Assembly (NCBI GenBank): GCA_003141715.1
Contig: PLNF01000024.1
Coordinates: 1-39,884, forward strand
Length of the DNA: 39,884 nt
DNA from: Bacteroidales bacterium
GTDB taxonomy: Bacteria; Bacteroidota; Bacteroidia; Bacteroidales; VadinHA17
Reading direction: 5' to 3'
Shown here: one piece after another, positions 25,119-39,794 of the stretch
How positions within the stretch are numbered: the first letter of the stretch is position 1
How the letters are laid out: the number at the start of each line of letters is the position of its first letter
The notes under the pieces: generated by a model
Told to the model about the DNA's origin: nothing
What the model saw: the letters and a program-made list of their open reading frames with translations, nothing else
The model's database searches: none
Position numbers and translations under genes: made by a program

Positions 25119-26303
25119 TTAAATATATTCAAAGGTGACTTTCTTAAGCCATTTCTCCTCGAGCAACCGTGCTATTCGTTTTACGACAGTCCGCCTTATT
25201 TCAAGGTCAACAGGCAGGTTTGGGTCCTGATGTGCAATATTTATCCTTGTACCAATAATGAAGTGAATTTCATCGCTCTCCATGATAAGCCTGACGATCT
25301 TATCTGCCGGTCCCTTGCCAAGTTTTACGCTGTTATTATAAGTTTTTAATATCTCGTTAACCTTCTGTAGTGTGAGTATACCTTCAGTTACAAGATCAAT
25401 TCCTTCCAGAAAACTTTCGGGGGGAAGTTCCGGATCTTCGAATATTAATTCATCAATTATTGTTCTGTTTAATTCCCTGGCAATAATATCTGCAGTTGTA
25501 CCGCCGCAGAGAATAACTTTTCCCTTATATGCCATGACTTTTGCAGCCAGCTCTTTATCCTTTTCCTTTTCGTATGGCGGACCTGTACTGATAATCAGTT
25601 TTCGAGGCTCCCGGAAGTAAATTGTTGCACAACTTATATCATCACGGGCTTTATAGTTGTCGTTTTTGTGAGCCATTGTAACAATCTTCCCGGCAAGCAT
25701 AATAGCTGAAATTGATGCTTCACTTGTTACCAGAGATGCCGCATAAGTTGATATATTTTCCCTTTCCCAGCCAAATGGAAATTGTTCGCTGCCCATTCCA
25801 CTCTGAGAAACGCCATCTGAACAGAAGATTATTCTGTCTTCTTTCTCAGGCATAAATGAACAGGTTTTGAGCACTTTGCCGGAATTTTTACCTTTCTCAA
25901 GCACTACCTTTTTCCATGAAGGATCAAATATCTGGTTGCCTCTTAAAATAATGCATGATGGGTTGTCATATTCCAGGATTGTTGCTTTTCCGCTGCTCTC
26001 AATATCTATAATTGTAAAAGTTGAATAGCTGATTTTCCTTTCACTGCATACGGGAAGGGTATTCATTATTATCTCAGCAATACGGTCGACCTCTTTATGT
26101 TCACGTGTAAAATTTATGGACATAGTTGCTGTAAGTGTTGCAAGAATATTTGCTTTAACACCGTGTCCCATACCGTCTGAAAGAACAGCTATAACCCTGT
26201 CTTCTTCTTTTATATACCTGTACAGAAATACATCACCGCAAATCCTCTCACCGTCGTAGTTCCTTTGCTGACTGTTAACCTCTATAAAAAAATTCCTGTT
26301 CAC
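25119..26303 (-). CDS. SpoIIE-type protein phosphatase linked to sensory hydrogenase
   Basis: 394 residues, starting with GTG at 26303. No ATG lies in the short gap to the upstream gene. The N-terminal half is a PP2C/SpoIIE phosphatase: ICGDVFLYRY, LSDGMGHGVKAN, IIFCSDGVSQSGMG and ARDDISCATIYF supply the metal-binding Asp residues. The C-terminal half (about 230-394, with STGPPYEKEKDKELA and VILCGGTTADIIARELNR) is a domain I know from phosphatases beside sensory [FeFe]-hydrogenase genes. It starts 6 bp after the stop of the PAS-bearing hydrogenase homologue, so the two are surely co-translated. Inference: the H-cluster/PAS protein controls this phosphatase, whose target would be a phosphorylated regulator elsewhere. 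Confidence 0.88.
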   Translation of the reverse strand: MNRNFFIEVNSQQRNYDGERICGDVFLYRYIKEEDRVIAVLSDGMGHGVKANILATLTATMSINFTREHKEVDRIAEIIMNTLPVCSERKISYSTFTIIDIESSGKATILEYDNPSCIILRGNQIFDPSWKKVVLEKGKNSGKVLKTCSFMPEKEDRIIFCSDGVSQSGMGSEQFPFGWERENISTYAASLVTSEASISAIMLAGKIVTMAHKNDNYKARDDISCATIYFREPRKLIISTGPPYEKEKDKELAAKVMAYKGKVILCGGTTADIIARELNRTIIDELIFEDPELPPESFLEGIDLVTEGILTLQKVNEILKTYNNSVKLGKGPADKIVRLIMESDEIHFIIGTRINIAHQDPNLPVDLEIRRTVVKRIARLLEEKWLKKVTFEYI

Positions 26304-26309
26304 GTAAGA

Positions 26310-28196
26310 TTATTTGGACTTATTTTTTGTATTCAGTTTTTTTGATTTATACGACTCAATTATAGAGTTCAGCATCTGCTCTGTTTCTGATGCACCTTCT
26401 CCAAGAAGGAATCCTATCTTCTGAACCATTTCAAGGTTTTTCTCAATCACCTCACTTACCCTGCTGGTAACCTCTTCACCCTGAACTTCGGGAGAATAAA
26501 GGTCGCGGATTATAGCTCCGCAAATTTTATTCTTCCTGATTGGAAAGATTGAGACATTCAGCATTTTATCTTCAAAATGGACATCTTTACTTAATACAGG
26601 TTCATCTTCCTTCAGTACAAAAGTGAACATATTATACACATTAAAGGGAAGGAGTGTTTTAACATCAGCACCAGCCAGTCCGGGAATTACATCAGATATG
26701 GCTTTGGCATCTTCACCAATAATATTTATAAAGCTTTGATTAGAATGAAGTATTTTAAGATTGTTGTCAACGATAACCACACCGGTAGGAAGCTTTTCGA
26801 GCATATTATTCATCATATCGGAAGCACTCTGGGCAATCTCTTTTTCCCTGCGGGCAAGTTCTTCTGATTCTTTGAGAGCCGTTTTTGTTTCAGCCAGTTT
26901 TCTGTTTGTCTGTCTGAGTGTCTCAATATATTCCTGTTTATTACGGAGATTAAAGGTATGGCACATTTCAGGAACTGCAAGTCCCTTGGCAACTGTTGAT
27001 GCGAAATCGCGACAGGAGAGATATCCGCAGGCACCACAGTTTATTTCATCATTGGGACTGTCTTTGCCGATTATTTTAAGTACTTCTAATACAGCTTCTT
27101 CCGGAGGGTCCGGAATTCTCTGGTCGTCAGGTGTGAAGGTTCTTAAAAAATCCAGTTTTGACCATTTTTCCATATTTTTCTGCCAGAGTGCCTTGTCAAG
27201 CTGGCCTACTCTCTTTTCAGCATACCTGCTTACAAGGGCTCTTCTCCTGAATCGTTCATTATGATGCTGCATACCTGGACCAAGCAGGCATCCATGGCAA
27301 AAGAAGAGGTTAAAATGATGTTGTAAAGTATCAATGTATTTATCAAAATCATTTATTGCTTCAAGTATTTCTTCTTTTCCCGAAGCAGTTATTACCCGGC
27401 TTGAAACCATATCACGTTTTATCCCACCTGCCTGGATAATCCCTGCAGGCAGTGGGTAGAGCGCGCCCCAGTTACCATGTGGCGGATCAAAATCAGACAT
27501 TTTAACCAGTCTTTCCTGAATCTTGAATTCATCAAAAAGTTCCCTTAGCTCCACAAAAGTCAGAACCCCGTCAACAAGATTCCCTGAATCATAGATAAGT
27601 GATTCGTCTTTTGCATCGATGCACGGGCCTATCTGAACTGTGGCTACCTCTGGTCCGTATAGCTTTTTTACAACCATTGCAGTGGCAACAATAGGAGAGA
27701 CCAGCGGGGCCAGATTTGGTACAAGCTCCGGATGAAACTTCTCAATAAGCTTGACAATTGATGGGCAGTTTGCAGTTATCAGATACTTGCCTTCAGCTTT
27801 TAAGAAAAGTTTTGCATAAGCTGCAGCAATCAGATCAACTCCGAATGAATCCTCATGAACATAGTCAAAACCCAGCGAACGGATCATTGCTACGAACTTC
27901 CTGTAATCAGTTATATCATCAAACTCCGATGCAATGCTTGGCTCAATAAGTGCTGCAGTTTTTCTTCCGGATGATAATAGTTTCTTCACGTCTTCCTTTG
28001 AATCGCGGAATTCAATAGCATGCGGAGTACATGATACATAACAAAGTCCACACCCTATGCATCTGTCGGGAAGAATATACGGATGCGCCTTCTGGGGTTT
28101 AACCTCAATAGCATTTACAGGGCAGACTCGCACGCAGGAATATGAGTTTCTGCATTTTTCGTCATTTATATAAAGAACTGGCTTTCTGTTTTTCAT
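26310..28196 (-). CDS. Sensory [FeFe]-hydrogenase homologue with PAS domain (HydS-like)
   Basis: 628 residues. Order: two [4Fe-4S] ferredoxin motifs (Cys15-25 and Cys46-56 regions); an [FeFe]-hydrogenase H-cluster domain (about 75-350); a CGACGYLSC-type iron-sulfur domain (Cys387, 390, 395, 412); a helical linker; a PAS domain (about 462-565); a charged C-terminal helix. H-cluster motifs are degenerate. TANCPSIV has Asn143 where active enzymes have the proton-relay Cys, though the ligand Cys144 stays. IGPCIDAKDE keeps Cys192. FFCHGCLLGPG has Cys300 and Cys303, a Cx2C instead of Cx3C. This matches sensory (group C/D-like) hydrogenases rather than a turnover enzyme. No kinase is attached. Output is probably through the phosphatase gene 6 bp downstream. 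Confidence 0.9.
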   Translation of the reverse strand: MKNRKPVLYINDEKCRNSYSCVRVCPVNAIEVKPQKAHPYILPDRCIGCGLCYVSCTPHAIEFRDSKEDVKKLLSSGRKTAALIEPSIASEFDDITDYRKFVAMIRSLGFDYVHEDSFGVDLIAAAYAKLFLKAEGKYLITANCPSIVKLIEKFHPELVPNLAPLVSPIVATAMVVKKLYGPEVATVQIGPCIDAKDESLIYDSGNLVDGVLTFVELRELFDEFKIQERLVKMSDFDPPHGNWGALYPLPAGIIQAGGIKRDMVSSRVITASGKEEILEAINDFDKYIDTLQHHFNLFFCHGCLLGPGMQHHNERFRRRALVSRYAEKRVGQLDKALWQKNMEKWSKLDFLRTFTPDDQRIPDPPEEAVLEVLKIIGKDSPNDEINCGACGYLSCRDFASTVAKGLAVPEMCHTFNLRNKQEYIETLRQTNRKLAETKTALKESEELARREKEIAQSASDMMNNMLEKLPTGVVIVDNNLKILHSNQSFINIIGEDAKAISDVIPGLAGADVKTLLPFNVYNMFTFVLKEDEPVLSKDVHFEDKMLNVSIFPIRKNKICGAIIRDLYSPEVQGEEVTSRVSEVIEKNLEMVQKIGFLLGEGASETEQMLNSIIESYKSKKLNTKNKSK

Positions 28197-28210
28197 ACTA
28201 ACTAATATAA

Positions 28211-28335
28211 GTGCCTAAAGTGCCTAGAGTGCCTAAAGTACTTAGAGTTACTATCAATATGTCAATCATCAGCTTTTTAAAACATTAAACCTTTAACTTT
28301 AAGTACTCCAAACTTTAGCTCACTTTAAGTACTTT
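28211..28335. repeat. Nonamer tandem repeats with an inverted partner
   Basis: Four 9-bp units, GTGCCTAAA, GTGCCTAGA, GTGCCTAAA and GTACTTAGA, run from 28211 to 28246. AAAGTACTTAGAGT (28235-28248) recurs inverted with one change as ACTTTAAGTACTTT (28322-28335). The array fills the gap between the ferredoxin gene and the sensory hydrogenase gene, so it would be transcribed as a stem-loop-prone spacer if the two are one operon. Confidence 0.75.
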
Positions 28336-28337
28336 CT

Positions 28338-28592
28338 TTAAACTAATCCGGCAAATTCTTTTTCCAGAATGCTCTCTATTTTTGAGAGTGTGACTCCCTC
28401 AAGAGTTACTCCGTTTATGTTCAGGTTTGGACCATTACTGCAGAGACCCATACAACGAGCCCCTTTGAAAATGACTTTGTCGTCAAGATGATTTTTTCTG
28501 AGATATTCTCTGATGAACATTACAACATCTTTATTACCCCGGGAAAAACAGGAACTGCCAAGACAGATTTGCATCTCAATTCTCTGAGCCAT
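28338..28592 (-). CDS. Thioredoxin-like [2Fe-2S] ferredoxin
   Basis: About 84 residues from the ATG at 28592 (MAQRIEMQICLGSSCFSRG). An in-frame ATG 11 codons upstream would add an unrelated leader overlapping a -7-like box, so I prefer the inner start. The four cluster ligands are arranged as in HydC/NuoE: CLGSSC (Cx4C), then CMGLC (Cx3C) in KGARCMGLCSNGP. It lacks the N-terminal helical part of HydC and is therefore a free-standing thioredoxin-fold ferredoxin. Such genes accompany sensory hydrogenases, and this one precedes one by 141 bp. It probably exchanges electrons with that protein. It is divergent from hydC. Confidence 0.85.
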   Translation of the reverse strand: MAQRIEMQICLGSSCFSRGNKDVVMFIREYLRKNHLDDKVIFKGARCMGLCSNGPNLNINGVTLEGVTLSKIESILEKEFAGLV

Positions 28593-28604
28593 TTTTTTAC
28601 TGTT

Positions 28605-28612
28605 CAAAAATA
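28605..28612 (-). promoter_or_regulatory. -7-like box for the [2Fe-2S] ferredoxin gene
   Basis: Read leftward the sequence is TATTTTTG, matching the Bacteroidota TAnnTTTG consensus, 12 bp before the chosen ATG. I found no good -33 element at the right distance, so this is tentative. Confidence 0.35.
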
Positions 28613-28816
28613 AACACGACATCAAAAGTAATAATTATTTCTGAGCTGTCATAAACCTCTGTTAATCTTAAATTCCTGGTTTTTACAGGCAAAATTATTT
28701 TGGTACGAACTTTTAACGATAATATTTTTATAGGTATAATTCTCAATACATATTATAAAACAATAATAACCAGTACGTTATAAAAGAATAAAACAAAAAA
28801 GTAATTTGTTAATTTA

Positions 28817-28834
28817 TTGTTAATAAAATAACAA
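28817..28834. promoter_or_regulatory. Putative Rex operator upstream of hydC
   Basis: TTGTTAATAAAATAACAA matches the Rex operator form TTGTTAANNNNTTAACAA known from clostridial-type Rex proteins at all but one arm position. It lies just upstream of the hydC -7 box, over the expected -33 area, and is flanked by further half sites. Rex would release it when NADH/NAD+ rises. A rex gene lies at 36732. An 18-bp stretch (28818-28835) recurs exactly at 35126-35143. Confidence 0.7.
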
Positions 28835-28861
28835 TGTTTATTTATTAACAATAAAATCAAT

Positions 28862-28869
28862 TATCTTTG
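28862..28869 (+). promoter_or_regulatory. -7 box of the hydC promoter
   Basis: TATCTTTG fits the TAnnTTTG element of Bacteroidota primary-sigma promoters, 30 bp before the hydC ATG. A weak -33 candidate (TTTA at 28837-28840) stands 21 bp upstream. The putative Rex sites surround that position. Confidence 0.6.
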
Positions 28870-28899
28870 TCTTGAAATTATATACATAATACTATCAGA

Positions 28900-29370
28900 A
28901 TGGGAACAGATCTTGATATAATTCTGAGAAAATACAAACAGGGGAAAAGAGAAGATTTAATTCCTTTGCTTCAGGAAATACAGGATGATCTGGGATATCT
29001 TTCTGAAGAAGCGATTGTAAAGACAGGGAGATTCCTGGGGCTAAGTACAACAAAGATCTATGGACTTGCCACATTTTATGACAGGTTCAGGTTCTTCCCT
29101 TCAGGAAAAATTCAGATTAGGATCTGCCATGGAACATCATGTTTTCTAAACGGATCACAAACAATCATAAATAAAATAAAAGAAGAGACCGGAGTGATGC
29201 CGGGACAGACAACCAGGGACGGCAATTTCAGCTACGAGATTGTTTCATGCATGGGTGGTTGCTGTAATGGACCAGTGATAAATGTAAATGGTCAATATCA
29301 CACTCATATTAAAGCTGAACAGCTTCCTGAACTGATTAAAAGGTTAAAATACGTTATTGAAAACGACTAA
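28900..29370 (+). CDS. hydC: HydC, NuoE-like [2Fe-2S] subunit
   Basis: 156 residues, typical for the HydC/NuoE family. An N-terminal helical bundle (about 1-70, with LLQEIQDDLGYLSEEAI and TTKIYGLATFYDRF) precedes a thioredoxin-fold [2Fe-2S] domain. Ligands are CHGTSC (Cx4C) and CMGGC (Cx3C) followed by CNGPVINVNG. In electron-bifurcating hydrogenases, HydC joins HydB and HydA in a cytoplasmic complex coupling NADH and ferredoxin to hydrogen. All ligand cysteines are present, unlike in the neighbouring HydB N-terminus. It is first in the run hydC-hydB-hydA-sensory kinase, with an 18-bp gap to hydB and a likely Rex-controlled promoter upstream. Confidence 0.92.
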   Translation: MGTDLDIILRKYKQGKREDLIPLLQEIQDDLGYLSEEAIVKTGRFLGLSTTKIYGLATFYDRFRFFPSGKIQIRICHGTSCFLNGSQTIINKIKEETGVMPGQTTRDGNFSYEIVSCMGGCCNGPVINVNGQYHTHIKAEQLPELIKRLKYVIEND

Positions 29371-29388
29371 TTCCAGTAAAAATTCCCG

Positions 29389-31323
29389 ATGGAAGATTTA
29401 AAAACATTCCTGATCGATAAGGTTCTTATGTATGAATCCGATACATTGTCACCGGAAACAAATAAGGTTTTACAACAGGTGAGACGGGAAAAAACCAATA
29501 AACCTGTAATCTTTGTCTCTACCGGTACAAGTAGTGTCATTGCCGGATCAGAAAAAACCTGTTCAGCAATTGATACATACATTAAGGAAAATGAACCATC
29601 AGCAGAATTAGTGCATGTAGGATGTAACGGACCAGCTTCTTATGAACCGCTTGTATGTATTCAGATTCCGGGGAAAAATAAATTATTCTTCAGAAATATA
29701 ACTGAAGAGAAGGTGGAACCTCTGCTGAACGGGGTTTTTCACAATGATATAAATGAGGACGATCTGGCCGGTCAGACAGGCACAAAAGGATTTGAATTGT
29801 GGTCGGGAATCCCTTTTATGGATGAGCTGCCATTTTTTGCAAACCAGAAAAGAGTCATACTTAGCAACTGTGGATTCTACGATCCCGAAAGCATTGAAGA
29901 ATATATAGCCCGAGGAGGTTACCGTGCATATATCAAAGCAATAAGACATTATACCTTTGAAGAAGTATGTGATATTATTGAAAGGAGCGGGCTGAGAGGC
30001 AGAAGCGGAGGAGGATATCTTACAGGATTGAAATGGAAGCATGCGCTTAATACAACCTCAAGTGCAAGGTATCTTATCTGCAACGCAAAGGAAAGTGACC
30101 CCGGAGCCTTCACCGACAGAACAATCCTTGAAAGTGATCCGCACCGGTTAATCGAAGGTATTGCAATTGCTTCCTACGCTATCGGGGCTTCTAATGCCAT
30201 TATTTTTATGCGATCGGGTTCGGATCATGCAAAGAACAGGCTTCAGAAAGCAATCGACAGAGCCAGAGACTTCGGACTTTTCGGGCATAATATTTTCTCA
30301 AGTGGATATAACCTTGATGTCATAATCCGAGTTGAACCCGGAGCATTCGTTTGTGGTGAAGAAACTGCTCTGATTAACACTCTTGAAGGGAAACGGGGTA
30401 TGCCACAACTTAAACCTCCTTATCCGACAACAGCAGGATTATTCGGAAAACCAACTGTTATTAACAACGTGGAGACTCTTATGAATGTCCCCCTCATAAT
30501 GCAGAACGGACCGGAATGGTTCCGCACTCTGGGAACAGATAATAGTCCTGGTACCAAAGTATTTGCAGTCGCAGGAAAAGGACGCATGTCGGGTGTGGTT
30601 GAAATCGAAATGGGTACCAGTATCAGGACAATTCTTGAAGATATTGCTGATGGAATAAAAGAGGGGAAAGAGTTTAAAGCTATACAGCTCGGGGGAGTAT
30701 CAGGTTCATTCATTACAGATAAAAACCTCGATATTGTTATTGATTACGATGTTCTAAAGAAAAAGGGAATTGGTATGGGAGCGGGTGGATTCGTGATAAT
30801 TGATGAGAATACCTGTATGGTTGACCTTGTAAGATATTATATGGAATTCATCCGAAATGAAAGTTGTGGAAAATGTATCCCATGCCGAGAAGGTACCGGC
30901 AGGATGCTCGAGATACTTGAAGGTGTTATAAGGAAACCTCTGAATGAAGAATCCGGAACAACCCTCGAGAGATTTAAAGGTGTAATGCAACTCGAAACAA
31001 TAGCATCGGTAATGAAAGACACTTCTCTGTGCGGACTCGGACAAACAGCTCCGAACCCTTTCATAAGTGCTCTTAAAAATTTCAGGGATGAGTTTGAAGA
31101 GCATATATTTGACAGGAAATGCCGCGCCAATATCTGCAGGGGACTCAGAACATTTTCAATTGATGTGGACAAGTGTACAGGTTGCACGGCATGTGCTGCT
31201 AAATGTCCTGTAAATGCGATTTATGGTACACGACTTCAGCCGTTTTTTATTGTTGAGGAGAAATGTATCGGCTGCGGGATCTGTTTCGATATTTGTAAGT
31301 TCAGTGCAATAAATGTTAAATAG
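29389..31323 (+). CDS. hydB: HydB, NuoF-like flavin subunit with altered cofactor-site residues
   Basis: 644 residues with the standard HydB layout. An N-terminal thioredoxin-like domain (about 38-110) precedes a NuoF-type FMN/NADH domain (about 180-400), an SLBB region, the [4Fe-4S] motif SCGKCIPCREG (about 492-502) with later CGLGQTAPNP, and two C-terminal [4Fe-4S] motifs. Oddities: the N-terminal domain keeps few cysteines (Cys79 in VGCNGPASYEPLV, where family members have a second Cys), so its [2Fe-2S] cluster is probably lost. CNAKESDPGAF has Lys234 in place of the usual Asp. MRSGSDH replaces the usual RAEY/RGEY with its Glu. These positions line the FMN/NADH pocket in NuoF. The complex may bind nucleotide differently. 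hydA starts 5 bp after its stop. Confidence 0.9.
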   Translation: MEDLKTFLIDKVLMYESDTLSPETNKVLQQVRREKTNKPVIFVSTGTSSVIAGSEKTCSAIDTYIKENEPSAELVHVGCNGPASYEPLVCIQIPGKNKLFFRNITEEKVEPLLNGVFHNDINEDDLAGQTGTKGFELWSGIPFMDELPFFANQKRVILSNCGFYDPESIEEYIARGGYRAYIKAIRHYTFEEVCDIIERSGLRGRSGGGYLTGLKWKHALNTTSSARYLICNAKESDPGAFTDRTILESDPHRLIEGIAIASYAIGASNAIIFMRSGSDHAKNRLQKAIDRARDFGLFGHNIFSSGYNLDVIIRVEPGAFVCGEETALINTLEGKRGMPQLKPPYPTTAGLFGKPTVINNVETLMNVPLIMQNGPEWFRTLGTDNSPGTKVFAVAGKGRMSGVVEIEMGTSIRTILEDIADGIKEGKEFKAIQLGGVSGSFITDKNLDIVIDYDVLKKKGIGMGAGGFVIIDENTCMVDLVRYYMEFIRNESCGKCIPCREGTGRMLEILEGVIRKPLNEESGTTLERFKGVMQLETIASVMKDTSLCGLGQTAPNPFISALKNFRDEFEEHIFDRKCRANICRGLRTFSIDVDKCTGCTACAAKCPVNAIYGTRLQPFFIVEEKCIGCGICFDICKFSAINVK

Positions 31324-31328
31324 CTTTT

Positions 31329-33050
31329 ATGCTTTTTACAATACAGGTAAATAATAAAAAGATCAAAGCCGAAAAGGGTGAAACAATCCTTTCGGCCCTT
31401 AATCGCAACGGAATTATTATACCGACCCTCTGCAGGATGAAAGAGTTTACCCCCACTGGCGCCTGCAGGATGTGTGTTGTTGAAGTCGAAGGTCGTGATC
31501 GGCTGGTTACAGCCTGTTCACAACCTGTAGAGGAATGGATGAAGATTAAAACACATTCACCCAGGGTGATCACAGCACGAAAAACAATAGTTGAGCTGTT
31601 GCTGTCAAACCATCCTGACGATTGCCTCTATTGCGACAGAAATCTGAATTGTGAACTTCAGCGTCTTTCGGAAGAGCTGAATATCAGAGAACGACGCATA
31701 CGCGGCAGAAAAATAAAACCCCGTCTCGACCAGTCAAGCCCTGCTATAATAAGGGAACTCTCCAAATGTATTCTCTGCGGACGATGTGTCAGAGTCTGTG
31801 AGGAAGTAATAACTGCAACTTCACTTGATTTTATTAATAAAGGGAGAGAAACACATGTTGGCGCTGCCATGGACAGGGATTTTAACTTTTCAAGCTGTGT
31901 TCATTGCGGCCAGTGCGTCCTGGTTTGTCCTACCGGTGCGCTTCATGAAAAACATAATATTTCAGAAGTTCAGGAATACCTTAATAAACCTGAAATAGTA
32001 AAGGTCATTCAGTATTCTTCAATGGTGGTTTACGGAATAGCTGAAGAACTTGGGATGAGATATACCAGGGAATTTGATAAGATTCTGAATACCATTCTTC
32101 GTAAAATTGGTTTTGATAAGGTTTATAAAACAGGATTAGGTACTGATGTTTGTATATCCGAAATTGCAGGTCAGCTCTCCGAAAGAATTGAAAATAAGTC
32201 AGATAACCCTTTATATATTTCTGCTTGTCCTGCATGGGTCAAATATGCAGAGCAATTTATTCCATCACTCATTCCTCAACTCTCCACAGTTAAATCCCCG
32301 CAACAGATTACCGGGGTACTGATAAAGACTCTGGTAGCAGATCAGCTTGGCGTTAAACCTGAGGAGATCTTTTCAGTTTCAGCCACTCCCTGTATGGCAA
32401 TGAAATTTGAAGCCCGTCGAGACGGGATGATGAGGAAAGGTATCAGTGATGTGGATTCTGTTTTGACGGTGAGGGAACTTGCCAGGCTTATAAGGTTATA
32501 TGGTATTGACACCTCAAACATTGAACATGAACCGGCTGATGAACCTATGTCAGGAAGAAGCTCAGCCGCCATATTGGCTGAAGTGTCTGGAGGGATGGCA
32601 GAAGGTGTCATCCGATCATATCATTATCAGAAAATGAAGAAAGAGCCTGATATACAGATTTTTAAAAAGTTGAGATCGGGAGGAACATTCAGGGAAATGT
32701 CAGTAATGATAGGTGAGACCGAGGTTAAAGTCGCAGTAGTAGATAGTCTTACAGGTCTGGAAAAGTTAAAGGTTTCCATAGCAGCCGATAAAAAGTATGA
32801 CCTTATTGAAGTAATGACTTGTCCGGGCGGATGCGTACATGGAGCAGGATTATCATTCAATAATTCAAAGGATGAAATTAAAACCAGATCGAAGCTGGTC
32901 TATCAGGCGGATGATACAGAAGCAATTAATCTGCCATGCAAATCACCGTCTCTTATAAATTTATACGAGAAACTGTTAAAAGATAATGCTGACATTGCAG
33001 ATAAAAAGATATTCTTTACTCATTTTGAGAAAAGAAATGTATTGTTATAA
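31329..33050 (+). CDS. hydA: HydA, [FeFe]-hydrogenase catalytic subunit with atypical active-site residues
   Basis: 573 residues. The N-terminal NuoG-like part has a [2Fe-2S] domain (CRMKEFTPTGACRMC...TAC) and a His-Cys3 [4Fe-4S] site (HPDDCLYCDRNLNCEL). Two [4Fe-4S] motifs follow (CILCGRCVRVC and CVHCGQCVLVC), then the H-cluster domain (from about 210). The four H-cluster cysteines are present: Cys300 in SACPAWV, Cys355 in TPCMAMKFE, and Cys498 and Cys502 in MTCPGGC. Three conserved second-sphere features differ. Ala299 replaces the proton-relay Cys of TSCCP. Met358 replaces the Lys of MPCTAKK. HGAGLS replaces the usual GGGQP end. No C-terminal extra [2Fe-2S] domain is present. It should assemble an H-cluster, but ordinary hydrogen turnover is doubtful. 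Confidence 0.9.
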   Translation: MLFTIQVNNKKIKAEKGETILSALNRNGIIIPTLCRMKEFTPTGACRMCVVEVEGRDRLVTACSQPVEEWMKIKTHSPRVITARKTIVELLLSNHPDDCLYCDRNLNCELQRLSEELNIRERRIRGRKIKPRLDQSSPAIIRELSKCILCGRCVRVCEEVITATSLDFINKGRETHVGAAMDRDFNFSSCVHCGQCVLVCPTGALHEKHNISEVQEYLNKPEIVKVIQYSSMVVYGIAEELGMRYTREFDKILNTILRKIGFDKVYKTGLGTDVCISEIAGQLSERIENKSDNPLYISACPAWVKYAEQFIPSLIPQLSTVKSPQQITGVLIKTLVADQLGVKPEEIFSVSATPCMAMKFEARRDGMMRKGISDVDSVLTVRELARLIRLYGIDTSNIEHEPADEPMSGRSSAAILAEVSGGMAEGVIRSYHYQKMKKEPDIQIFKKLRSGGTFREMSVMIGETEVKVAVVDSLTGLEKLKVSIAADKKYDLIEVMTCPGGCVHGAGLSFNNSKDEIKTRSKLVYQADDTEAINLPCKSPSLINLYEKLLKDNADIADKKIFFTHFEKRNVLL

Positions 33051-33068
33051 TAAATAACACGATTAAAT

Positions 33069-35030
33069 ATGTTGGTTTACACCATAAAGGAGCTTTGCCG
33101 CACATGCTATACCTGCGTAAGGGAATGCCCTGCCAAAGCTATCCGGATTGTGGGAGGACAGGCTGAGGTAATTGATGAAAGGTGTATTGCGTGCGGCAAT
33201 TGTACAAAAGTGTGCAGCCAGGGAGCGAAGGTCTTTCTTAATACAACCGACAGAGTAGTAAAACTTCTCGAAAGTGATCCGAAAGTTGCAGCTATTATTG
33301 CTCCGAGTTTTCCGGCGGAATTCTTTGATATTCCTGATCATCATATCCTTACGGGCATGATAAAGGCACTTGGTTTTGAACTTGTGGCTGAAGTCTCTTT
33401 TGGCGCTGACCTTGTCGCCGACAGATATAAAAAGCTTGTATCTGAGGAAAAGAAATTTTATATATCGTCTGATTGCCCTTCAATTGTCAATTACGTTAAA
33501 TTTTATCACCCTGCACTTGTAGATAACCTGGCTCCGGTCGTCTCCCCCATGGTGGCAATGAGCAGAGTGGTACGTGAAAAATATGGAAAGGATACAAAAA
33601 TTGTATTTATAGGTCCTTGCATTGCAAAGAAAGCTGAAAGCAGTGAAATTGATGAAGCTATAACCTTTACCGAATTAAGAGATATGCTGGCCGACAGAGG
33701 TATTACTCCGGAAACCAGTACACCGATAGACTTTGATCAGCCGGTGGGTGGAAGAGGCGCCATATTCCCTGTTGCACGTGGATTGCTTCAGACAGCTAAA
33801 ATCAGCGACAATGCTATAACCGGAAATATGATAGCTGCTGAAGGAAGAATCGATTTTCAGGGAGCATTAAAGGAATTTGAAGCAGGTCTGATAAAGAACC
33901 AGCATATGGAGTTGCTTTGTTGCGAGGGATGTATTATGGGACCCGGGTTATCAAAAAACGGCAAGCAATATAACAGACGGTCACTGGTGAGTTCCTATGC
34001 CAATAGTAAAATGCAGAATATTGATTCTGAGAGCTGGCAAAAATCATTTGACGAGTTCGCTGACCTGGACCTGTCAATCAGGCATAAACCCGAAGATCTC
34101 CAGATTGAAACACTTGATGAGAATGATGTGAACGATATTCTTATTAAGATGGGCAAAAAGACGAAGAAGGATCAGCTCGATTGCGGTGCATGTGGTTATG
34201 AAAGTTGCGTCGAGCACGCAATAGCCATTAAAAAGGGACTGGCTGAAGTTGAGATGTGCCTGCCTTATACCATCGAAAAACTGCACAAATCGATAAAGGA
34301 CCTTGCATTATCAAACGAGAAACTCTCATCAATGAAACAGGCTCTTAAGCAATCTGAAAAACTGGCCCATATGGGTCAGCTTTCTGCAGGTATAGCACAT
34401 GAGCTTAATAATCCGCTCGGAGTGGTGATTATGTACAGCAACATCCTCCTGGAAGAATCGAAGACAGGAGATCCTGTCAGAGAAGATCTTAAACTCATCG
34501 TAGACCAGGCTGCCAGATGTAAAAAAATTGTAGCAGGGTTATTGAATTTCGCTCGCAAGAACCAGGTAAACCATCAGATGGTTAGTATAAAAGACCTTGT
34601 TGATCATAGCCTTGAAAGCCTGATTATTCCCGGGAAGGTTAAAATCAATATTGATGACAGAACTACAAATCCTGAAGCTATGCTTGATCAGGAGCAGATG
34701 ATGCAGGTACTTACAAACCTGATCAAGAATGCTTTTGATGCAATGCCTGCAGGAGGAACTGTCAATATTAAGATGGAGGATACACTCAGCGATGTAATAA
34801 TAGTTATAAGTGACACAGGTACTGGTATAAAAGAAGAAGACAGGGCTAAAATTTTCGAGCCGTTTTTTACCACAAAAAGTATCGGAAAGGGCACCGGTCT
34901 GGGACTGGCAACTGCTTATGGTATTGTTAAAATGCATAAAGGTCAGATAACAGCCGATTCGAATAATAACCCTTCCAATGGCGCAACAGGAACCAGCTTT
35001 AAGATTGTGTTGCCGAGACGGAAGGAATAG
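33069..35030 (+). CDS. Sensory [FeFe]-hydrogenase homologue fused to histidine kinase
   Basis: 653 residues. Order: two ferredoxin-type [4Fe-4S] motifs (Cys10-20 and Cys39-49); a hydrogenase H-cluster-like domain (about 70-320); a CGACGYESC iron-sulfur domain (Cys372, 375, 380, 397); a coiled coil; a HisKA domain with His444 (AHELNNPLG); and an ATPase domain with NLIKNAFDAM, DTGTGI and GKGTGLGLA. H-cluster motifs: SDCPSIV has Asp135 in place of the relay Cys and keeps Cys136. GPCIAKKAE keeps Cys184, Lys187 and Glu190. CCEGCIMGPG ends the site. The first two thirds closely match the PAS-type homologue at 26310-28196, so the two are paralogues with different outputs. It is the last gene of the hydC run, 18 bp after hydA. 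Its likely partners are the receivers just downstream. Confidence 0.9.
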   Translation: MLVYTIKELCRTCYTCVRECPAKAIRIVGGQAEVIDERCIACGNCTKVCSQGAKVFLNTTDRVVKLLESDPKVAAIIAPSFPAEFFDIPDHHILTGMIKALGFELVAEVSFGADLVADRYKKLVSEEKKFYISSDCPSIVNYVKFYHPALVDNLAPVVSPMVAMSRVVREKYGKDTKIVFIGPCIAKKAESSEIDEAITFTELRDMLADRGITPETSTPIDFDQPVGGRGAIFPVARGLLQTAKISDNAITGNMIAAEGRIDFQGALKEFEAGLIKNQHMELLCCEGCIMGPGLSKNGKQYNRRSLVSSYANSKMQNIDSESWQKSFDEFADLDLSIRHKPEDLQIETLDENDVNDILIKMGKKTKKDQLDCGACGYESCVEHAIAIKKGLAEVEMCLPYTIEKLHKSIKDLALSNEKLSSMKQALKQSEKLAHMGQLSAGIAHELNNPLGVVIMYSNILLEESKTGDPVREDLKLIVDQAARCKKIVAGLLNFARKNQVNHQMVSIKDLVDHSLESLIIPGKVKINIDDRTTNPEAMLDQEQMMQVLTNLIKNAFDAMPAGGTVNIKMEDTLSDVIIVISDTGTGIKEEDRAKIFEPFFTTKSIGKGTGLGLATAYGIVKMHKGQITADSNNNPSNGATGTSFKIVLPRRKE

Positions 35031-35035
35031 AATGG

Positions 35036-35083
35036 GAGACTGAGAGACTGAGAGGCTAAGAGAATCAGAAGCTAAGGGATTCA
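35036..35083 (+). repeat. Six-copy octamer tandem repeat
   Basis: GAGACTGA twice, then GAGGCTAA, GAGAATCA, GAAGCTAA and GGGATTCA, starting 5 bp after the kinase stop. The 15-mer GAGACTGAGAGACTG (35036-35050) recurs exactly at 39800-39814 after hydG. Confidence 0.85.
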
Positions 35084-35092
35084 ACTTAATAA

Positions 35093-35120
35093 ACCGAGGA
35101 CCGAGCACCCAGAACACAGT
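35093..35120 (+). repeat. Four-copy heptamer tandem repeat
   Basis: ACCGAGG, ACCGAGC, ACCCAGA and ACACAGT, followed by AACAA. The unit and the trailing AGTAACAA match the translated array at 14714-14741. It ends 5 bp before the putative Rex operator. Confidence 0.85.
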
Positions 35121-35125
35121 AACAA

Positions 35126-35143
35126 TGTTAATAAAATAACAAT
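35126..35143. promoter_or_regulatory. Second putative Rex operator, upstream of the receiver gene
   Basis: TGTTAATAAAATAACAAT is identical over 18 bp to 28818-28835 upstream of hydC. It lies 58 bp before the ATG of the receiver gene that begins the run receiver, receiver-kinase, rex. That would make rex autoregulated together with the signalling genes. I could not define a confident -7 box in this gap. Confidence 0.65.
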
Positions 35144-35201
35144 AATCATAATTATCATAATAACTGGTTGATTTAAAGAATTTTTAGAAATTTGTGGAAA
35201 A

Positions 35202-35597
35202 ATGAAAAAGAGTGACATAACAATACTGGTTGCTGATGATGATCCGGATTACCTTTTTCAGACAGTATTCAATCTTGAGAAGGCAGGTTACAAAACTGTG
35301 GCTGTTGAGAGTCAGGCGGAGGCAGAATCTGTAATCGCCAGATTCAAACCCAACCTGGCAATATTTGACCTGATGATGGAAAATGATGACAGCGGCTTCA
35401 TCTTATGTTACAAGATAAAGAGAAAATACCCCGATGTGCCGGTTATTCTGGCAACAGCGGTATCTCATGAAACAGGATTATCCTTCAGCATCGATTCTGA
35501 CCAGGAAAAGTCGTGGATAAGAGCTGACAAATACCTCGAAAAAGGTATCAGACCTGAACAACTCGACCAGGAGGTTATGAAATTATTAAAACTTTAA
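35202..35597 (+). CDS. Stand-alone response-regulator receiver
   Basis: 131 residues, a single receiver domain. The acidic pocket is Asp12-Asp13-Asp14 (VADDDPDY), the phospho-acceptor is Asp56 (AIFDLMM), the conserved Thr/Ala is in LATAVS, and a Lys lies near the C-terminus (YLEKGI). There is no DNA-binding or enzymatic output, so it acts as a phosphorelay intermediate or protein-binding switch. It lies about 170 bp after the hydrogenase-kinase gene and 1 bp before a receiver-kinase gene, so those are its obvious partners. Confidence 0.9.
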   Translation: MKKSDITILVADDDPDYLFQTVFNLEKAGYKTVAVESQAEAESVIARFKPNLAIFDLMMENDDSGFILCYKIKRKYPDVPVILATAVSHETGLSFSIDSDQEKSWIRADKYLEKGIRPEQLDQEVMKLLKL

Positions 35598-35598
35598 G

Positions 35599-36735
35599 AT
35601 GGCTGTTCTGAAAGTACTTGTTATTGATGATGAACCGGGTATACGATCAGGTGTATCCAGGATACTCAACAACTTTCACGTTACCTATCCTTTTATGGAT
35701 GAGGATTATACGTTTGAGGTTACCGAAGCTGCCACAGGCGAGGAAGGCATCACAATTCTTGAGCGGGATATGCCTGATATTCTATTGCTCGATAACAAAT
35801 TACCGGGAATACAGGGAGTTGAAGTTCTGGAGTATATCAGGAAAAGAAATTATGATATTGTTGTCGCAATGATCACCTCTTATGCTTCTCTCGACGTTGC
35901 ATTAAGGGCAACCCGCGACGGTGCTATCGATTTCATTCCTAAGCCATTTACCCCACAGGAGCTGAAATCAAGTATTGAAAACATTACCAAACAGCAGTAT
36001 CTTAAGAGGATAACACATAAGATGAAACAGGAGGGGAAAAAGATCAGATATCAGTTTCTTTCTGTATTGTCGCACGAATTGAAAGCACCGCTTAATGCAT
36101 TGGAAGGTTATCTCAGGATGATGCAGGGCAAGCAGGCCGGAGAATTAATTGATGATTACGCAACTCCTATTGAGAGATCTCTTCAAAGGATACAGGGAAT
36201 GAGAAGCCTTATCATGGACCTTCTTGATTTTACTAAAATCAGACTTGAACGAAAAGAAGAAAAAATACAGGAGGTAAATCTCGCCGAATTGGCTTCAGAA
36301 GCAATAGTGACTGTTCAGCCTTATGCAATCCAGATGGATGTAAGTATTAATCTCGACGTAAGGACAAATGTTATTATAATGGCTGACCCCGATGATATGG
36401 AGATTGTATTTAATAATCTCATCTCCAATGCTGTTAAGTACAATAAAATAGGCGGCAAAGCTGAAATTACAATAGATAGTTCTGACAGTGAAGCAATTCT
36501 GATTATTTCGGATACCGGAATTGGCATAACCAAAAATGATACTGAAAATCTTTTTGCTGAGTTTGTACGGATCAGGAATGAAAAGACAAGGAATATATCA
36601 GGAAGCGGACTCGGATTATCGATAGTTAAAAAAGTTGTGGAATTATATCATGGCACAATTAAGGTTGATAGTACCCCCGATGTAGGAACAGTATTTACAG
36701 TACGATTACCAAAAAAACCAATAACCATTCCATGA
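35599..36735 (+). CDS. Receiver-histidine kinase hybrid
   Basis: 378 residues. The N-terminal receiver has Asp10-Asp11 and phospho-acceptor Asp65 (LLLDNKLPG), then MITSYAS and the Lys in FIPKPFTPQEL. It is followed by a HisKA domain with His159 (SHELKAPLNALEGY) and an ATPase domain with NLISNAVKYN, DTGIGIT and GSGLGLSIVKKVVELY. There is no membrane segment. A receiver ahead of a kinase suggests that the kinase is controlled by phosphorylation from another kinase, for example the hydrogenase-kinase fusion upstream. Its 3' end overlaps the rex start by 4 bp (ATGA), so the two are translationally coupled. Confidence 0.9.
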   Translation: MAVLKVLVIDDEPGIRSGVSRILNNFHVTYPFMDEDYTFEVTEAATGEEGITILERDMPDILLLDNKLPGIQGVEVLEYIRKRNYDIVVAMITSYASLDVALRATRDGAIDFIPKPFTPQELKSSIENITKQQYLKRITHKMKQEGKKIRYQFLSVLSHELKAPLNALEGYLRMMQGKQAGELIDDYATPIERSLQRIQGMRSLIMDLLDFTKIRLERKEEKIQEVNLAELASEAIVTVQPYAIQMDVSINLDVRTNVIIMADPDDMEIVFNNLISNAVKYNKIGGKAEITIDSSDSEAILIISDTGIGITKNDTENLFAEFVRIRNEKTRNISGSGLGLSIVKKVVELYHGTIKVDSTPDVGTVFTVRLPKKPITIP

Positions 36736-37355
36736 AACTACCAGGAAAAACCGTAGAAAGGCTTAGTAAATACAGGAGGACACTTCTGGAATGCCTTAAC
36801 GAGAAAAGAAACTTCATCTATTCCCATGATCTGGCTGCACGTATTCATATTACTGCCGTACAGGTAAGACGTGACCTTATGCTGATTGGTTATTCGAGCG
36901 TCCTTAGAAAAGGCTATGATGTCAGGGAGCTTATCGATACTATCAGTAAGATAATAGATTCTGAAGAGAGCATACATGTGGCAGTAATCGGGATTGGGAA
37001 TCTTGGAAGAGCTGTTGCCGGTTATTTTAAGGGCAAAAGATCAAAACTTAACCTTGTGGCATCGTTTGATAACGATCCGCAGAAAATAAATAAAGTTATT
37101 TCAGGAGTAAAATGTTATCCGTACAACGATATAGAAAGGATGATAAAAGAGCTGGATATCAGAATAGCAATTCTTACAGTTCCCCTAGATTCTGCAAAAG
37201 AGATAACTGAAGAAATGGTCCGCTATGGAATAAAAGGTATTCTGAATTTTACAACTATTCCTTTAAACGTACCCTCCGGGGTCTACCTCGAGGAATATGA
37301 TATGATAACTTCAATAGAAAAAGTTGCCTATTTTGTAAAAGAGAATAAAATTTAG
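36732..37355 (+). CDS. rex: Rex, redox-sensing transcriptional repressor
   Basis: 207 residues, the normal length. The N-terminal winged helix (about 1-75) contains KTVERLSKYRRTLLECL and TAVQVRRDLMLIGY with the family's DNA-contact Arg residues. The Rossmann domain has VAVIGIGNLGRAVAGYF and FDNDPQKI, followed by a C-terminal swapped helix. Rex dimers bind DNA when NAD+ is high and release it when NADH rises, controlling fermentation and hydrogenase genes. Its placement among the hydrogenase signalling genes, and the two TTGTTAA-type operators nearby, support local regulation. The start overlaps the previous gene by 4 bp, and ribF follows 14 bp later. Confidence 0.93.
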   Translation: MKLPGKTVERLSKYRRTLLECLNEKRNFIYSHDLAARIHITAVQVRRDLMLIGYSSVLRKGYDVRELIDTISKIIDSEESIHVAVIGIGNLGRAVAGYFKGKRSKLNLVASFDNDPQKINKVISGVKCYPYNDIERMIKELDIRIAILTVPLDSAKEITEEMVRYGIKGILNFTTIPLNVPSGVYLEEYDMITSIEKVAYFVKENKI

Positions 37356-37369
37356 ATTACAGGTTTAAC

Positions 37370-38290
37370 ATGAAGATATTCAAAAGCATTGAGGAGGCGA
37401 AAAATATCATAAACCCTGTCGTTACAACCGGATCCTTCGACGGGGTTCATATCGGACATAAGACCATACTTAACCGGCTCAGGATGCTGGCTGAGAAATA
37501 CAATGGCGAATCGGTGCTGATCACATTTGATCCTCATCCCAGAAAAGTTCTCTACCCCGATACTGCAGGGAAAGATCTTAAATTGATTAATTCAAAGGAA
37601 GAAAAGCTTGATCTTCTGGAGAAAGCGGGACTTGATAATGTCATTATAGTAGAATTCACAAAAGAGTTCTCAAAGATCACAAGCGAACAATTTGTAAGAG
37701 ATTTACTTCATGGCATCCTAAATGCAAAAGTTGTTGTTGCCGGGTTTAACCATCATTTTGGATTCAACAAGGAAGGTGATTATAAACAATTATGGGACTG
37801 GCAGGGAAAATATCATTTTGAGGCAGAAGAGATTCCCGAACAGGAGGTTTACCACGAAACCGTAAGTTCAACAAAAATCCGGCAGGCTATAAGCGATGGT
37901 TATATTCAAAGAGCAAATGCATACCTCGATCACTATTATATTATTAAGGGTAAACCTGAGAATTATCTGATTGAAGATACTCATAATCTTCCTTCACTGT
38001 TAAAAATTCCACTTACAGAAGAATGCAAAATCCTGCCTTCACCGGGGATATATGCTGTTTCAATTGAGTCGGGGCTGGTCAATTCAAAAGGAATGGCAAT
38101 AATTCATGGCAGACCTGAAAATACATCAGAAGTTTTAGTGAATATTTTTGAAGAAATAAACCTTAATTCTGGTAATAAAATCACTGTTTCATTCCATAAA
38201 AAGATACATGGAGCTATCAGCTTTTCCGATATCAGGGCTGTTTCAAAAATCAACCTGGCGATCGAGGAGATATCGGACCTTATATATTAA
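37370..38290 (+). CDS. ribF: Bifunctional riboflavin kinase / FAD synthetase
   Basis: 306 residues, typical length. The N-terminal FAD synthetase nucleotidyltransferase motif GSFDGVHIGHKTIL and FDPHPRKVLYPD are present, with ISSTKIR-like VSSTKIRQAISDG near residue 165. The C-terminal riboflavin kinase part (about 190-306) is less conserved than usual: the normal GxAx(N)xG-type entry is reduced to YYIIKGKPENYLIEDTHNLP. The synthetase half looks intact. The kinase half may be weak. It turns riboflavin into FMN and then FAD. Its position before hydG and after rex suggests supply of flavin for HydB, though ribF is also a housekeeping gene. Confidence 0.85.
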   Translation: MKIFKSIEEAKNIINPVVTTGSFDGVHIGHKTILNRLRMLAEKYNGESVLITFDPHPRKVLYPDTAGKDLKLINSKEEKLDLLEKAGLDNVIIVEFTKEFSKITSEQFVRDLLHGILNAKVVVAGFNHHFGFNKEGDYKQLWDWQGKYHFEAEEIPEQEVYHETVSSTKIRQAISDGYIQRANAYLDHYYIIKGKPENYLIEDTHNLPSLLKIPLTEECKILPSPGIYAVSIESGLVNSKGMAIIHGRPENTSEVLVNIFEEINLNSGNKITVSFHKKIHGAISFSDIRAVSKINLAIEEISDLIY

Positions 38291-38322
38291 CAGAAATCAT
38301 TTTCAAAAGGCTATTTGTTGAT

Positions 38323-38330
38323 TATCTTTG
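38323..38330 (+). promoter_or_regulatory. -7 box upstream of hydG
   Basis: TATCTTTG, identical to the hydC -7 box, lies 39 bp before the hydG ATG and 32 bp after the ribF stop. No clear -33 box or Rex site is seen, so hydG may have its own constitutive promoter. Confidence 0.5.
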
Positions 38331-38369
38331 CAGTCGAAGTTGCGAGGCTTAAATTTAATTTTTAATTTA

Positions 38370-39794
38370 ATGAAGTTTTCACCTGAAAAATTGAGTATTC
38401 CCGATCAGCGAATGAAGCCATTCATTGATCCTGAAGAGATATGGAACCTGATCAATAATACCAAGCCTGATAAGCAGAGGGTAAGAGATGTTATTGCAAA
38501 ATCGCTTGATAAGCAAAGACTCACAATGGAGGAGACTGCTGTTCTTGTAAACTCTGTTGGAACCGGGTTGGCTGATGAGATCAAACAAGGTGCCCGTGAA
38601 TTGAAGGAGAAGGTATATGGAAACAGGATTGTGCTTTTTGCACCTCTCTATGTCGGAAACAGGTGTATCAATAATTGCCAGTATTGTGGATTCAGAGTTA
38701 CAAACGCTGAAGCTATCCGGAAGACCCTGAGTGATAGTGATATAGTTAAAGAAGTTGAAGCTCTCGAGGATAATGGGCAGAAGAGATTAATACTGGTTTA
38801 CGGAGAACATCCTGATTATTCACCTGAATATATTGCCCATACAGTTAAAATTGTTTATGGTGTAAAGAAAGGCCACGGTGAAATAAGGAGGGTAAATATA
38901 AATGCGGCCCCTCTCGATATTGAGGGATTCAGAACCGTGGGAGAATCAGGTATCGGTACTTACCAGGTATTCCAGGAAACGTATCATCCTGAAGCATATA
39001 AGTGGTATCATCTTGGAGGAAAAAAGAGAGACTATGAATATCGCCTGACAGCGCTCGACAGGGCACAGGAAGCCGGAATTGACGATGTGGGAATAGGGGC
39101 CCTCTTCGGCCTTTACGACTGGAGGTTTGAAGTAATGGGACTTGTACGTCATACCAATCACCTTGAGGCCTGTTATAACGTAGGCCCCCATACAATTTCA
39201 TTCCCCCGTATTAAAGATGCCCTCAGCCTGAATATTGACGGTAAATATGAAACAGGGGATGAAGATTTTAAGAAACTGGTTGCCATACTAAGACTTGCCG
39301 TTCCATATACCGGATTGATATTAACTGCAAGGGAGGCTCCTGACGTCAGGAGGGAAGCTATGCAATATGGTGTATCACAGATAGATGGTGGTACGAAACT
39401 CGAGCTTGGTTCATATTCCGATACAAAAAATGAAAAACAAAATCTGAATCGTGAGCAATTTAAGATAAATGATGCTCGTTCACTGGCAGAAGTTATCGAT
39501 GAACTCCTGGAAAACGATTACCTGCCTTCGTTTTGCACCTCGTGTTACAGAATGGGACGCACCGGTGAACATTTCATGGAGTTTTCAGTACCCGGATTCA
39601 TAAAAAGATTCTGTACTCCAAATGCAATACTTACTCTCTCAGAATATATCTGCGATTATGCCCAGGGAGAAACTGTTGAAAAAGGATGGAAAACTATCGA
39701 AAAAAACCTCGAAAAACTTGAAGCAGGGGTGGCCGTAAGCACAAAGGAAAAAATTGAAAGGATTAAGCTAGGGGAGAGGGATCTGTACTTTTAG
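38370..39794 (+). CDS. hydG: HydG, radical-SAM [FeFe]-hydrogenase maturase
   Basis: 474 residues from the ATG at 38370 (MKFSPEKLSIPDQRMKPFID). Upstream in-frame TTG codons would start inside the promoter-like region. HydG cleaves tyrosine to make the CO and CN- ligands of the H-cluster. The radical-SAM motif CINNCQYCGFR (Cx3Cx2C) is near residue 95. The C-terminal auxiliary-cluster motif CTSC...C with 22 residues before the last Cys (CX2CX22C) is complete, separating it from ThiH. All catalytic features look intact, so this cell can probably build H-clusters. hydE and hydF are not in the window and may lie beyond its right end. Confidence 0.94.
   Translation: MKFSPEKLSIPDQRMKPFIDPEEIWNLINNTKPDKQRVRDVIAKSLDKQRLTMEETAVLVNSVGTGLADEIKQGARELKEKVYGNRIVLFAPLYVGNRCINNCQYCGFRVTNAEAIRKTLSDSDIVKEVEALEDNGQKRLILVYGEHPDYSPEYIAHTVKIVYGVKKGHGEIRRVNINAAPLDIEGFRTVGESGIGTYQVFQETYHPEAYKWYHLGGKKRDYEYRLTALDRAQEAGIDDVGIGALFGLYDWRFEVMGLVRHTNHLEACYNVGPHTISFPRIKDALSLNIDGKYETGDEDFKKLVAILRLAVPYTGLILTAREAPDVRREAMQYGVSQIDGGTKLELGSYSDTKNEKQNLNREQFKINDARSLAEVIDELLENDYLPSFCTSCYRMGRTGEHFMEFSVPGFIKRFCTPNAILTLSEYICDYAQGETVEKGWKTIEKNLEKLEAGVAVSTKEKIERIKLGERDLYF

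Follow-up and report, generated by a model that had tools for sequence, protein, structure and literature searches.

Background

The closest described systems to the gene cluster treated here are the trimeric [FeFe] hydrogenases of group A3 (HydABC or BfuABC, as in T. maritima, A. woodii and T. kivui) and the H-cluster sensors of groups C and D (TmHydS, TamHydS and R. albus HydS). The cluster occupies positions 25119 to 39794 of a 39,884-nucleotide stretch from a Bacteroidales bacterium (assembly GCA_003141715.1, contig PLNF01000024.1, positions 1 to 39,884), and this whole stretch is called the window. It encodes a HydABC-like complex between two HydS proteins, one with a PAS-like domain (HydS-PAS) and one with a histidine kinase domain (HydS-kinase). 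It is best read, from sequence comparison, as a module signalling hydrogen (H2) and reduced nicotinamide adenine dinucleotide (NADH), in which HydABC would have been converted from an enzyme to a sensor or redox relay.

Group C and D sensors contain a ferredoxin, an H-domain mostly without the relay cysteine and a C-terminal iron–sulfur (Fe-S) domain, with a PAS domain in group C, and in the hfs system of T. saccharolyticum HfsB has a phosphatase neighbour, HfsC, to which HydS-PAS beside a PP2C phosphatase is alike (PMC8163306, PMC10055695, PMC11837493, PMC5707799). Most of these sensors have another residue in place of the relay cysteine, and they turn over slowly (PMC8163306, PMC10055695, PMC10407848); group D takes a different proton route (PMC10407848). 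In CpI, E279A/Q and C299A/S left <1% activity, and 30-80% was retained in C299D of CpI and C169D of HydA1 (PMC6226526). Zheng and Huang (2024) described group A3 complexes next to which a group C3 sensor is encoded; in Hydrogenedentota some BfuABC sub-types include a T subunit of group C3, and the sensor gene adjoining HydABC bears a PAS or kinase domain (PMC11406978). A 2022 review still treated H2 sensing by H-cluster proteins as putative (PMC8924675). Excess NADH frees the repressor Rex from DNA (PMC5707799).

The HydABC of the window shares its subunit set and Fe-S layout with group A3, but the window-type HydA lacks the proton path, cysteines at the HydB N-terminus are partly lost, and a single locus unites sensors of both kinds with receivers, Rex and RibF. 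Unlike in groups C and D, a kinase domain is part of one sensor, the other stands beside PP2C, and both adjoin an altered HydABC. A Rex gene with Rex-box-like palindromes as candidate sites recalls known Rex regulons, from which the locus differs in that Rex lies inside a sensory hydrogenase operon. The literature searched, which covered few subscription journals, yielded neither loss of the proton path in HydABC's own subunit nor its tie to a PAS-type sensor, and nothing on group C3 with a phosphatase or on a Bacteroidetes Rex motif; queries on HydABC with PAS and kinase, groups C1/C3 with kinase, sensory [FeFe] proteins of Bacteroidota and Rex with HydS returned no such locus. What appears to be new is the proposed conversion of HydABC; the two HydS kinds and the adjacency of a sensor to HydABC were known already.

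Loss of the proton path accompanies the PAS-type sensor

Alignment of 150 loci gave HydS-kinase in 144, with an upstream HydA in 133 and none in 11. Exclusion of 14 near-copies from the window's genus and of two short kinase readings (L095, L105) left 117 loci, two of which (L104 and L227) are identical in the tree columns. They divide into 69 loci with a PAS-type sensor (the window's type) and 48 without (the sister type). HydS-PAS was found within the fetched stretch at 60 of the 69, PP2C at 57, and at nine HydS-PAS was found by genome search alone. That search covered 51 genomes, without PP2C among its targets, and gave an orthologue in ten, all ten with a broken path, and none in 41; orthologues were called by judgement from span and identity (35-95%), and some of the 41 have weaker relatives (e.g. 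32% identity in G221). Among the 48 sensor-less rows, seven that come from named contigs were classed by the fetched stretch only; the scan of named contigs covered at least 591 stretches, of which 80 were kept and 16 of these examined.

Residue positions follow what we take to be CpI numbering, assigned by motif match. In the sensor-less HydA, E279, E282, R286, C299, S319, M353, K358 and M497 are canonical in 48/48 loci. In the sensor-bearing HydA, E279, E282, C299 and S319 occur together in 0/69: E279 is kept in six and gone in 63, M353 is kept in 37 and K358 in 40. C299 remains in 31, and elsewhere the position is taken by A (10), D (9), S (7), H (3), L (3), N (2), E (2) or F (2). The excluded rows follow the same rule where readable, 14 being sensor-bearing with a broken path and L105 sensor-less with an intact one (L070 is unreadable). 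At ten broken-path loci the fetched stretch, mostly at a contig end, holds no sensor gene, and HydS-PAS lies elsewhere in all ten genomes.

The preliminary description of the window, made from the sequence alone, had centred on loss of the relay cysteine. Since 31 of the 69 window-type loci keep C299, this is not the defining feature; judged from the alignment, what sets the type apart is that the complete proton path is gone, in most cases through E279. Only six usable pairs were available for the question of whether C299 loss co-occurs independently with loss of K358 or M353. A canonical HydA in relatives at this locus, named at the outset as counter-evidence, does occur, throughout the sister type (48/48), but in none of the 69 loci of the window's type is the path complete. 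The metal-binding residues stayed: among 19 HydA cluster-cysteine columns of the sensor-bearing type 17 are conserved in 69/69 loci and two in 68, the HydB cysteines from C493 onward are present in 69/69, and HydC keeps four cysteines in 65/65.

In the window itself, the translations confirmed Asn, Ala and Asp at the relay position of three H-cluster domains, all in open reading frames placed as first described: the L1 motif reads TANCPS in HydS-PAS, ISACPAW in the HydA-like protein (31329-33050) and SSDCPS in HydS-kinase. PF02906 scores were 123.6, 220.9 and 145.7 bits, respectively (cut-off 22.1). In the alignment E279, E282, M353 and K358 are exchanged for Ile, Gln, Thr and Met in the HydA-like protein, which retains C300, C355, C499 and C503 and the Ser at 319; the group A3 path C299/E279/E282/S319 thus reads A/I/Q/S. 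Domain matches for the HydA/HydB/HydC set, including Fe-S and flavin mononucleotide (FMN) domains, agree with the group A3 subunits, while HydA stays below the NCBIfam group A cut-offs (TIGR02512, 344.7 of 405.95 bits; NF040763, 566.9 of 765 bits). The closest solved structure, both by sequence and by an AlphaFold model of moderate quality (m78fe15c60502; mean predicted local distance difference test (pLDDT) score 75.6), is 8a6t_A, HydA1 of T. kivui HydABC. The earlier view that none of the three domains looks like a normal turnover enzyme has to be qualified, as Asp in HydS-kinase is not plainly crippling, given the 30-80% activity of C299D/C169D (PMC6226526).

Both HydS proteins show the features of sensory group C, namely ferredoxin, H-domain, C-terminal FeS motif and PAS or kinase, with the usually replaced relay Cys exchanged for Asn in HydS-PAS and Asp in HydS-kinase. 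Their domains thus fit assignment of HydS-kinase, and of HydS-PAS with its phosphatase, to a known sensory kind. PAS_8 was matched in 14/14 HydS-PAS orthologues scanned (E up to 0.1) and fell below the cut-off in the window protein, whose AlphaFold model (m9626bc1165bc; mean pLDDT 71.7, moderate) has a mixed alpha/beta fold at 470-565.

Common ancestry and selection

A tree of HydB and HydS-kinase, with HydA omitted, divided both types by a single branch with a support of 100 in the Shimodaira–Hasegawa-like approximate likelihood ratio test (SH-aLRT). This one fully supported branch points to a single event, and the window's type is probably derived, as rows from outside the order fall on the intact side. 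Along this tree the sensor changes once, C299 is kept or lost at least 10 times, residue 279 changes at least 33 times and C355 never. A HydA tree of every second locus (35 window-type, 24 sister-type) and 23 other HydA again placed the window's type in one group (support 100); three changes are required for the sister type, partly due to L007, which was entered among the other HydA and is itself the HydA of a sister-type locus. By sequence, the HydABC-like complex of the window and the canonical trimeric hydrogenase of the sister type at the same locus thus appear to share common ancestry. Families f1, f36, f60 and f68 contain both types (e.g. G059 and G061 versus genera g1, g2 and g6 of f1), which may point to a transfer or an ancient duplication.

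Within the genus, HydA is under purifying selection: its ratio of nonsynonymous to synonymous substitutions (dN/dS) is 0.023-0.048, similar to neighbouring genes, in the four of six comparisons that could be estimated (the remaining two were saturated, and two of the four have synonymous distances >2). Mean identity of HydS-kinase is 0.587 in the window's type versus 0.560 in the sister type; for HydA the values are 0.475 and 0.647. Cluster cysteines are never among the lost HydA columns. HydA is split into two pieces in L070 and carries an internal stop in G424.

Gene content and spread of the locus

The features of the locus in the window are as follows (coordinates, strand, description).

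25119 to 26303, minus: PP2C/SpoIIE-type serine phosphatase (PF07228, 44.7 bits)
26310 to 28196, minus: HydS-PAS, 2[4Fe-4S] ferredoxin, H-cluster domain (Asn at 299), FeS domain and PAS-like domain (PF02906, Fer4, PF04060)
28338 to 28592, minus: 84-residue thioredoxin-like [2Fe-2S] ferredoxin, absent from the preliminary description (PF01257, 42.4 bits)
28817 to 28834, no strand: Rex-box-like palindrome upstream of hydC, exact match to TTGTKAWNNNNWTMACAA
28834 to 28851, no strand: second Rex-box-like site overlapping the first, 2 mismatches; tandem pair seen in many relatives
28900 to 29370, plus: HydC, NuoE-like [2Fe-2S] subunit (PF01257, 149.8 bits)
29389 to 31323, plus: HydB, NuoF-like FMN/Fe-S subunit with C-terminal ferredoxin domain (PF01512, PF10589, Fer4)
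31329 to 33050, plus: HydA-like subunit with A299/I279/Q282/T353/M358, cluster cysteines kept (PF02906)
33069 to 35030, plus: HydS-kinase, ferredoxin, H-cluster domain (Asp at 299), FeS domain and histidine kinase (PF02906, PF04060, PF00512, PF02518)
35125 to 35142, no strand: weak Rex-box-like site upstream of the receiver gene, 1 mismatch
35202 to 35597, plus: stand-alone receiver (PF00072)
35599 to 36735, plus: receiver with histidine kinase (PF00072, PF00512, PF02518)
36732 to 37355, plus: Rex, NADH-responsive repressor (NF003995, 197 bits, cut-off 126; PF06971, PF02629)
37370 to 38290, plus: RibF-like flavin adenine dinucleotide synthetase/riboflavin kinase (PF06574, PF01687)
38328 to 39794, plus: HydG maturase (TIGR03955, 479 bits, cut-off 312)

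PP2C and HydS-PAS are divergent from the series HydC, HydB, HydA, HydS-kinase, receiver, receiver/kinase, Rex and RibF. All ten genes from PP2C to RibF were found in 25 of 38 fetched stretches, the remainder being mostly at contig edges or of the sister type (L099 and L101, other hydrogenase loci, were set aside). The six core genes from HydC to the receiver/kinase lie within the stretch at 109/117 loci. Gene order is conserved across families, where conservation across genera had been named beforehand as support for a functional system; the notion of a locus unique to this contig was dropped, as relatives with the same order were found. Apart from the window and L106 (a metagenome bin of Bacteroidales whose HydA shows 90% identity), the 69 window-type loci belong to 26 coded families within the order; the 48 sister-type loci come from 25 coded families and named bins. 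Of 393 genomes in the order, 139 gave a match for HydS-kinase or its PAS-bearing homologue to a HydS-kinase profile.

Where more than 8.5 kilobases were available upstream, a divergent PP2C gene was present at 55/58 sensor-bearing versus 0/36 other loci. With more than 6 kilobases downstream, Rex (55/58 versus 0/37) and RibF (51/58 versus 0/37) likewise followed in order at sensor-bearing loci; the stand-alone receiver (57/58 versus 37/37), the receiver with kinase (58/58 versus 37/37) and a collinear HydG-like gene (33/58 versus 17/37) occur in both types. The 84-residue ferredoxin gene lies upstream of HydS-PAS at 68 of 76 loci having room. The domain search detected no DNA-binding domain in either receiver protein, and a tRNA scan over the window found none. 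HydG had been credited with both cluster motifs, and CX3CX2C and CX2CX22C are indeed present in its translation.

Several loci deviate from this arrangement. L064, L065, L068 and L106 have an opposite-strand HydG-like gene (42-44% identity) after RibF and no collinear HydG. Ignavibacteria-related and other named bins carry an intact HydA beside the kinase, and their fetched stretch lacks a PAS sensor, two of the sensor-less named bins having Ser at position 300; in L109, L110 and L113 (Ignavibacteria-related) a second HydCBA set (TSCSP) directly follows the canonical locus. Genome G040 has two locus copies, L090 and L100, with the HydS-PAS match in two pieces in one. In L107 and L108 the kinase is present and HydA is not adjacent.

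Rex and a likely working hydrogenase outside the locus

Rex was matched over both its N-terminal DNA-binding and its NAD-binding domain and is the only Rex detected in the window's genome. The search pattern for its sites was what we take to be the Rex-box consensus. In the 300 bases upstream of hydC, a palindrome with at most one mismatch is present at 46/64 window-type loci (dinucleotide shuffles: mean 0.75, largest 3) versus 0/46 other loci. At this locus, Rex gene and Rex-box-like site are thus features of the window's type only. Over the whole window, five matches at up to two mismatches against 4.84 expected correspond to chance, the exact one being that upstream of hydC. The site at 35125 to 35142 is weak, because a site occurs at this place in only 2/68 sensor-bearing loci.

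A working hydrogenase elsewhere in the genome had been envisaged, and a fourth PF02906 protein with the relay Cys was found on another contig (C9), adjoining HydB and HydC genes and with the motif TSCSPGW rather than TSCCP; the alternative of a genome without any relay-Cys hydrogenase was thereby dropped. This protein has E279, E282 and the whole IMEEGTEL segment, TSCSPGW is also seen in the solved HydA1 chain 7q4v_A (grouped with 7q4w, titled as A. woodii HydABC), and HydE and HydF are encoded in the genome. It is therefore, judged by these residues and genes, likely a plausible working hydrogenase outside the locus, and HydG may also mature it. By a tally made by eye, 53 of 54 window-type genomes (the exception being G424) versus 19 of 41 other-type genomes have an extra group A HydA that scores at least 290 bits. 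A second hydrogenase fits an enzyme released for a sensory role and does not prove it.

Upstream of the C9-type hydC, a Rex-box-like site near -134 was found in the genus in 16/22 cases at up to one mismatch and 21/22 at up to two, the window's own genome having two mismatches. At a second canonical HydA type (TSCCPGW; L101, L303-L321) such a site was found in 0/20 at up to one mismatch and 1/20 at two, one of the 20 having no upstream sequence.

Which function is most likely?

On balance we lean towards a hydrogen/NADH signalling module whose HydABC-like complex lacks the established proton path and keeps its H-cluster cysteines together with most Fe-S ligands of the electron relay. The signalling and redox role proposed in the preliminary description gained the linked Rex, the Rex-box-like sites and the proton-path pattern, but its function is still inferred only. 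A more specific version, which we offer tentatively, holds that a bifurcating-type HydABC was converted once, in a single lineage of loci that today spans at least 26 families of the order, into the input stage of two-component and phosphatase signalling, so that a non-turnover complex would read NADH, ferredoxin and H2 jointly. Under the favoured reading of a signalling module, the altered H-cluster would equilibrate slowly with H2 and, via FMN and the Fe-S clusters, with the NADH or ferredoxin pool, and HydABC would hold a redox state in place of turnover, a mechanism suggested by the CpI variant activities, the low turnover of groups C and D and the release of Rex by NADH. This redox state and the H-cluster of HydS-kinase would set kinase activity towards the receiver and the receiver-kinase, with HydS-PAS controlling the PP2C phosphatase in parallel. 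High NADH would make Rex lift repression and so set the operon level, and one likely target of signalling would be the working hydrogenase elsewhere in the genome.

A number of observations speak against conversion to a sensor or relay. Two sensor-bearing loci retain both E279 and C299, and C299 by itself persists at the 31 loci noted above. The thioredoxin-like cysteines at the N-terminus of HydB, also missing in the window, are each kept in only 33-43 of the 69 loci. Because the two types part only once on the tree, the association of sensor and path has no independent replicates, and the tree of HydB and HydS-kinase was made by a quick method without bootstrap and has some long branches. 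Conservation of HydA, HydB and HydC alike is lower in the window's type than in its sister, so general relaxation may account for part of the pattern. Among the lost columns, catalytic positions show only a modest excess (5/8, P 0.013), as does the proton path alone (3/5, P 0.068), both values being uncorrected for kinship. As to Rex, the C9-type hydC carries its Rex-box-like site also in genomes without the locus, 4/5 other-type genomes have Rex elsewhere, and Rex lies on the contig of the C9-type hydrogenase in 7/10 genus genomes checked. The window's Rex therefore need not control that hydC, and its candidacy as sole regulator of the C9-type hydrogenase was dropped.

That HydABC is still a hydrogenase, either using another proton route or working slowly with a changed bias while the HydS proteins only regulate, seems unlikely to us. 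The alternative route of group D sensors (PMC10407848) would leave H2 turnover by the window complex possible, group A3 complexes with a neighbouring group C3 sensor are known (PMC11406978), and, next to the retained C299, nine of the 69 loci have Asp, a working relay in CpI (PMC6226526). Against this stand the absence of E279 in 63/69 loci, the Ala and Gln variants of which are <1% active in CpI, the simultaneous lack of E279, E282, C299, M353 and K358 in the window HydA, and the other group A enzyme already present in nearly all such genomes tallied.

Distinctly unlikely is a complete loss of H2 chemistry, by which the complex would serve the HydS proteins as an electron conduit, either NADH-ferredoxin or NADH-to-sensor. 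The kept Fe-S relay cysteines and the FMN domain matched in the window protein would suit such a conduit, as would the retention of K358 at only 40 and of M353 at only 37 of the 69 loci. An Ala at column A228 of L087, presumably close to the H-cluster, is also replaced in most window-type HydA. The H-cluster ligands, including C503, are nevertheless kept in 68-69 of 69 loci and HydG is often linked, although the same cysteines are also ligands of the [4Fe-4S] part and a linked HydG is equally common in the other type. Plain decay, in which other hydrogenases make the complex redundant and it disappears under relaxed selection, is very unlikely: the lower conservation of HydA, HydB and HydC, the many different residues replacing C299 and E279 and the broken HydA of L070 and G424 would agree with it, but the genus HydA has a dN/dS comparable to its neighbours, and Fe-S cysteines and gene order are retained over 26 coded families.

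The exact association of the PAS-type sensor gene with a broken path across the 117 loci provides matched versions of one complex, likely enzyme and likely non-enzyme, with which the question of H-cluster sensors becomes directly testable. The natural replacements at positions 279, 299, 353 and 358 are moreover a ready series of variants for the tuning of the H-cluster.

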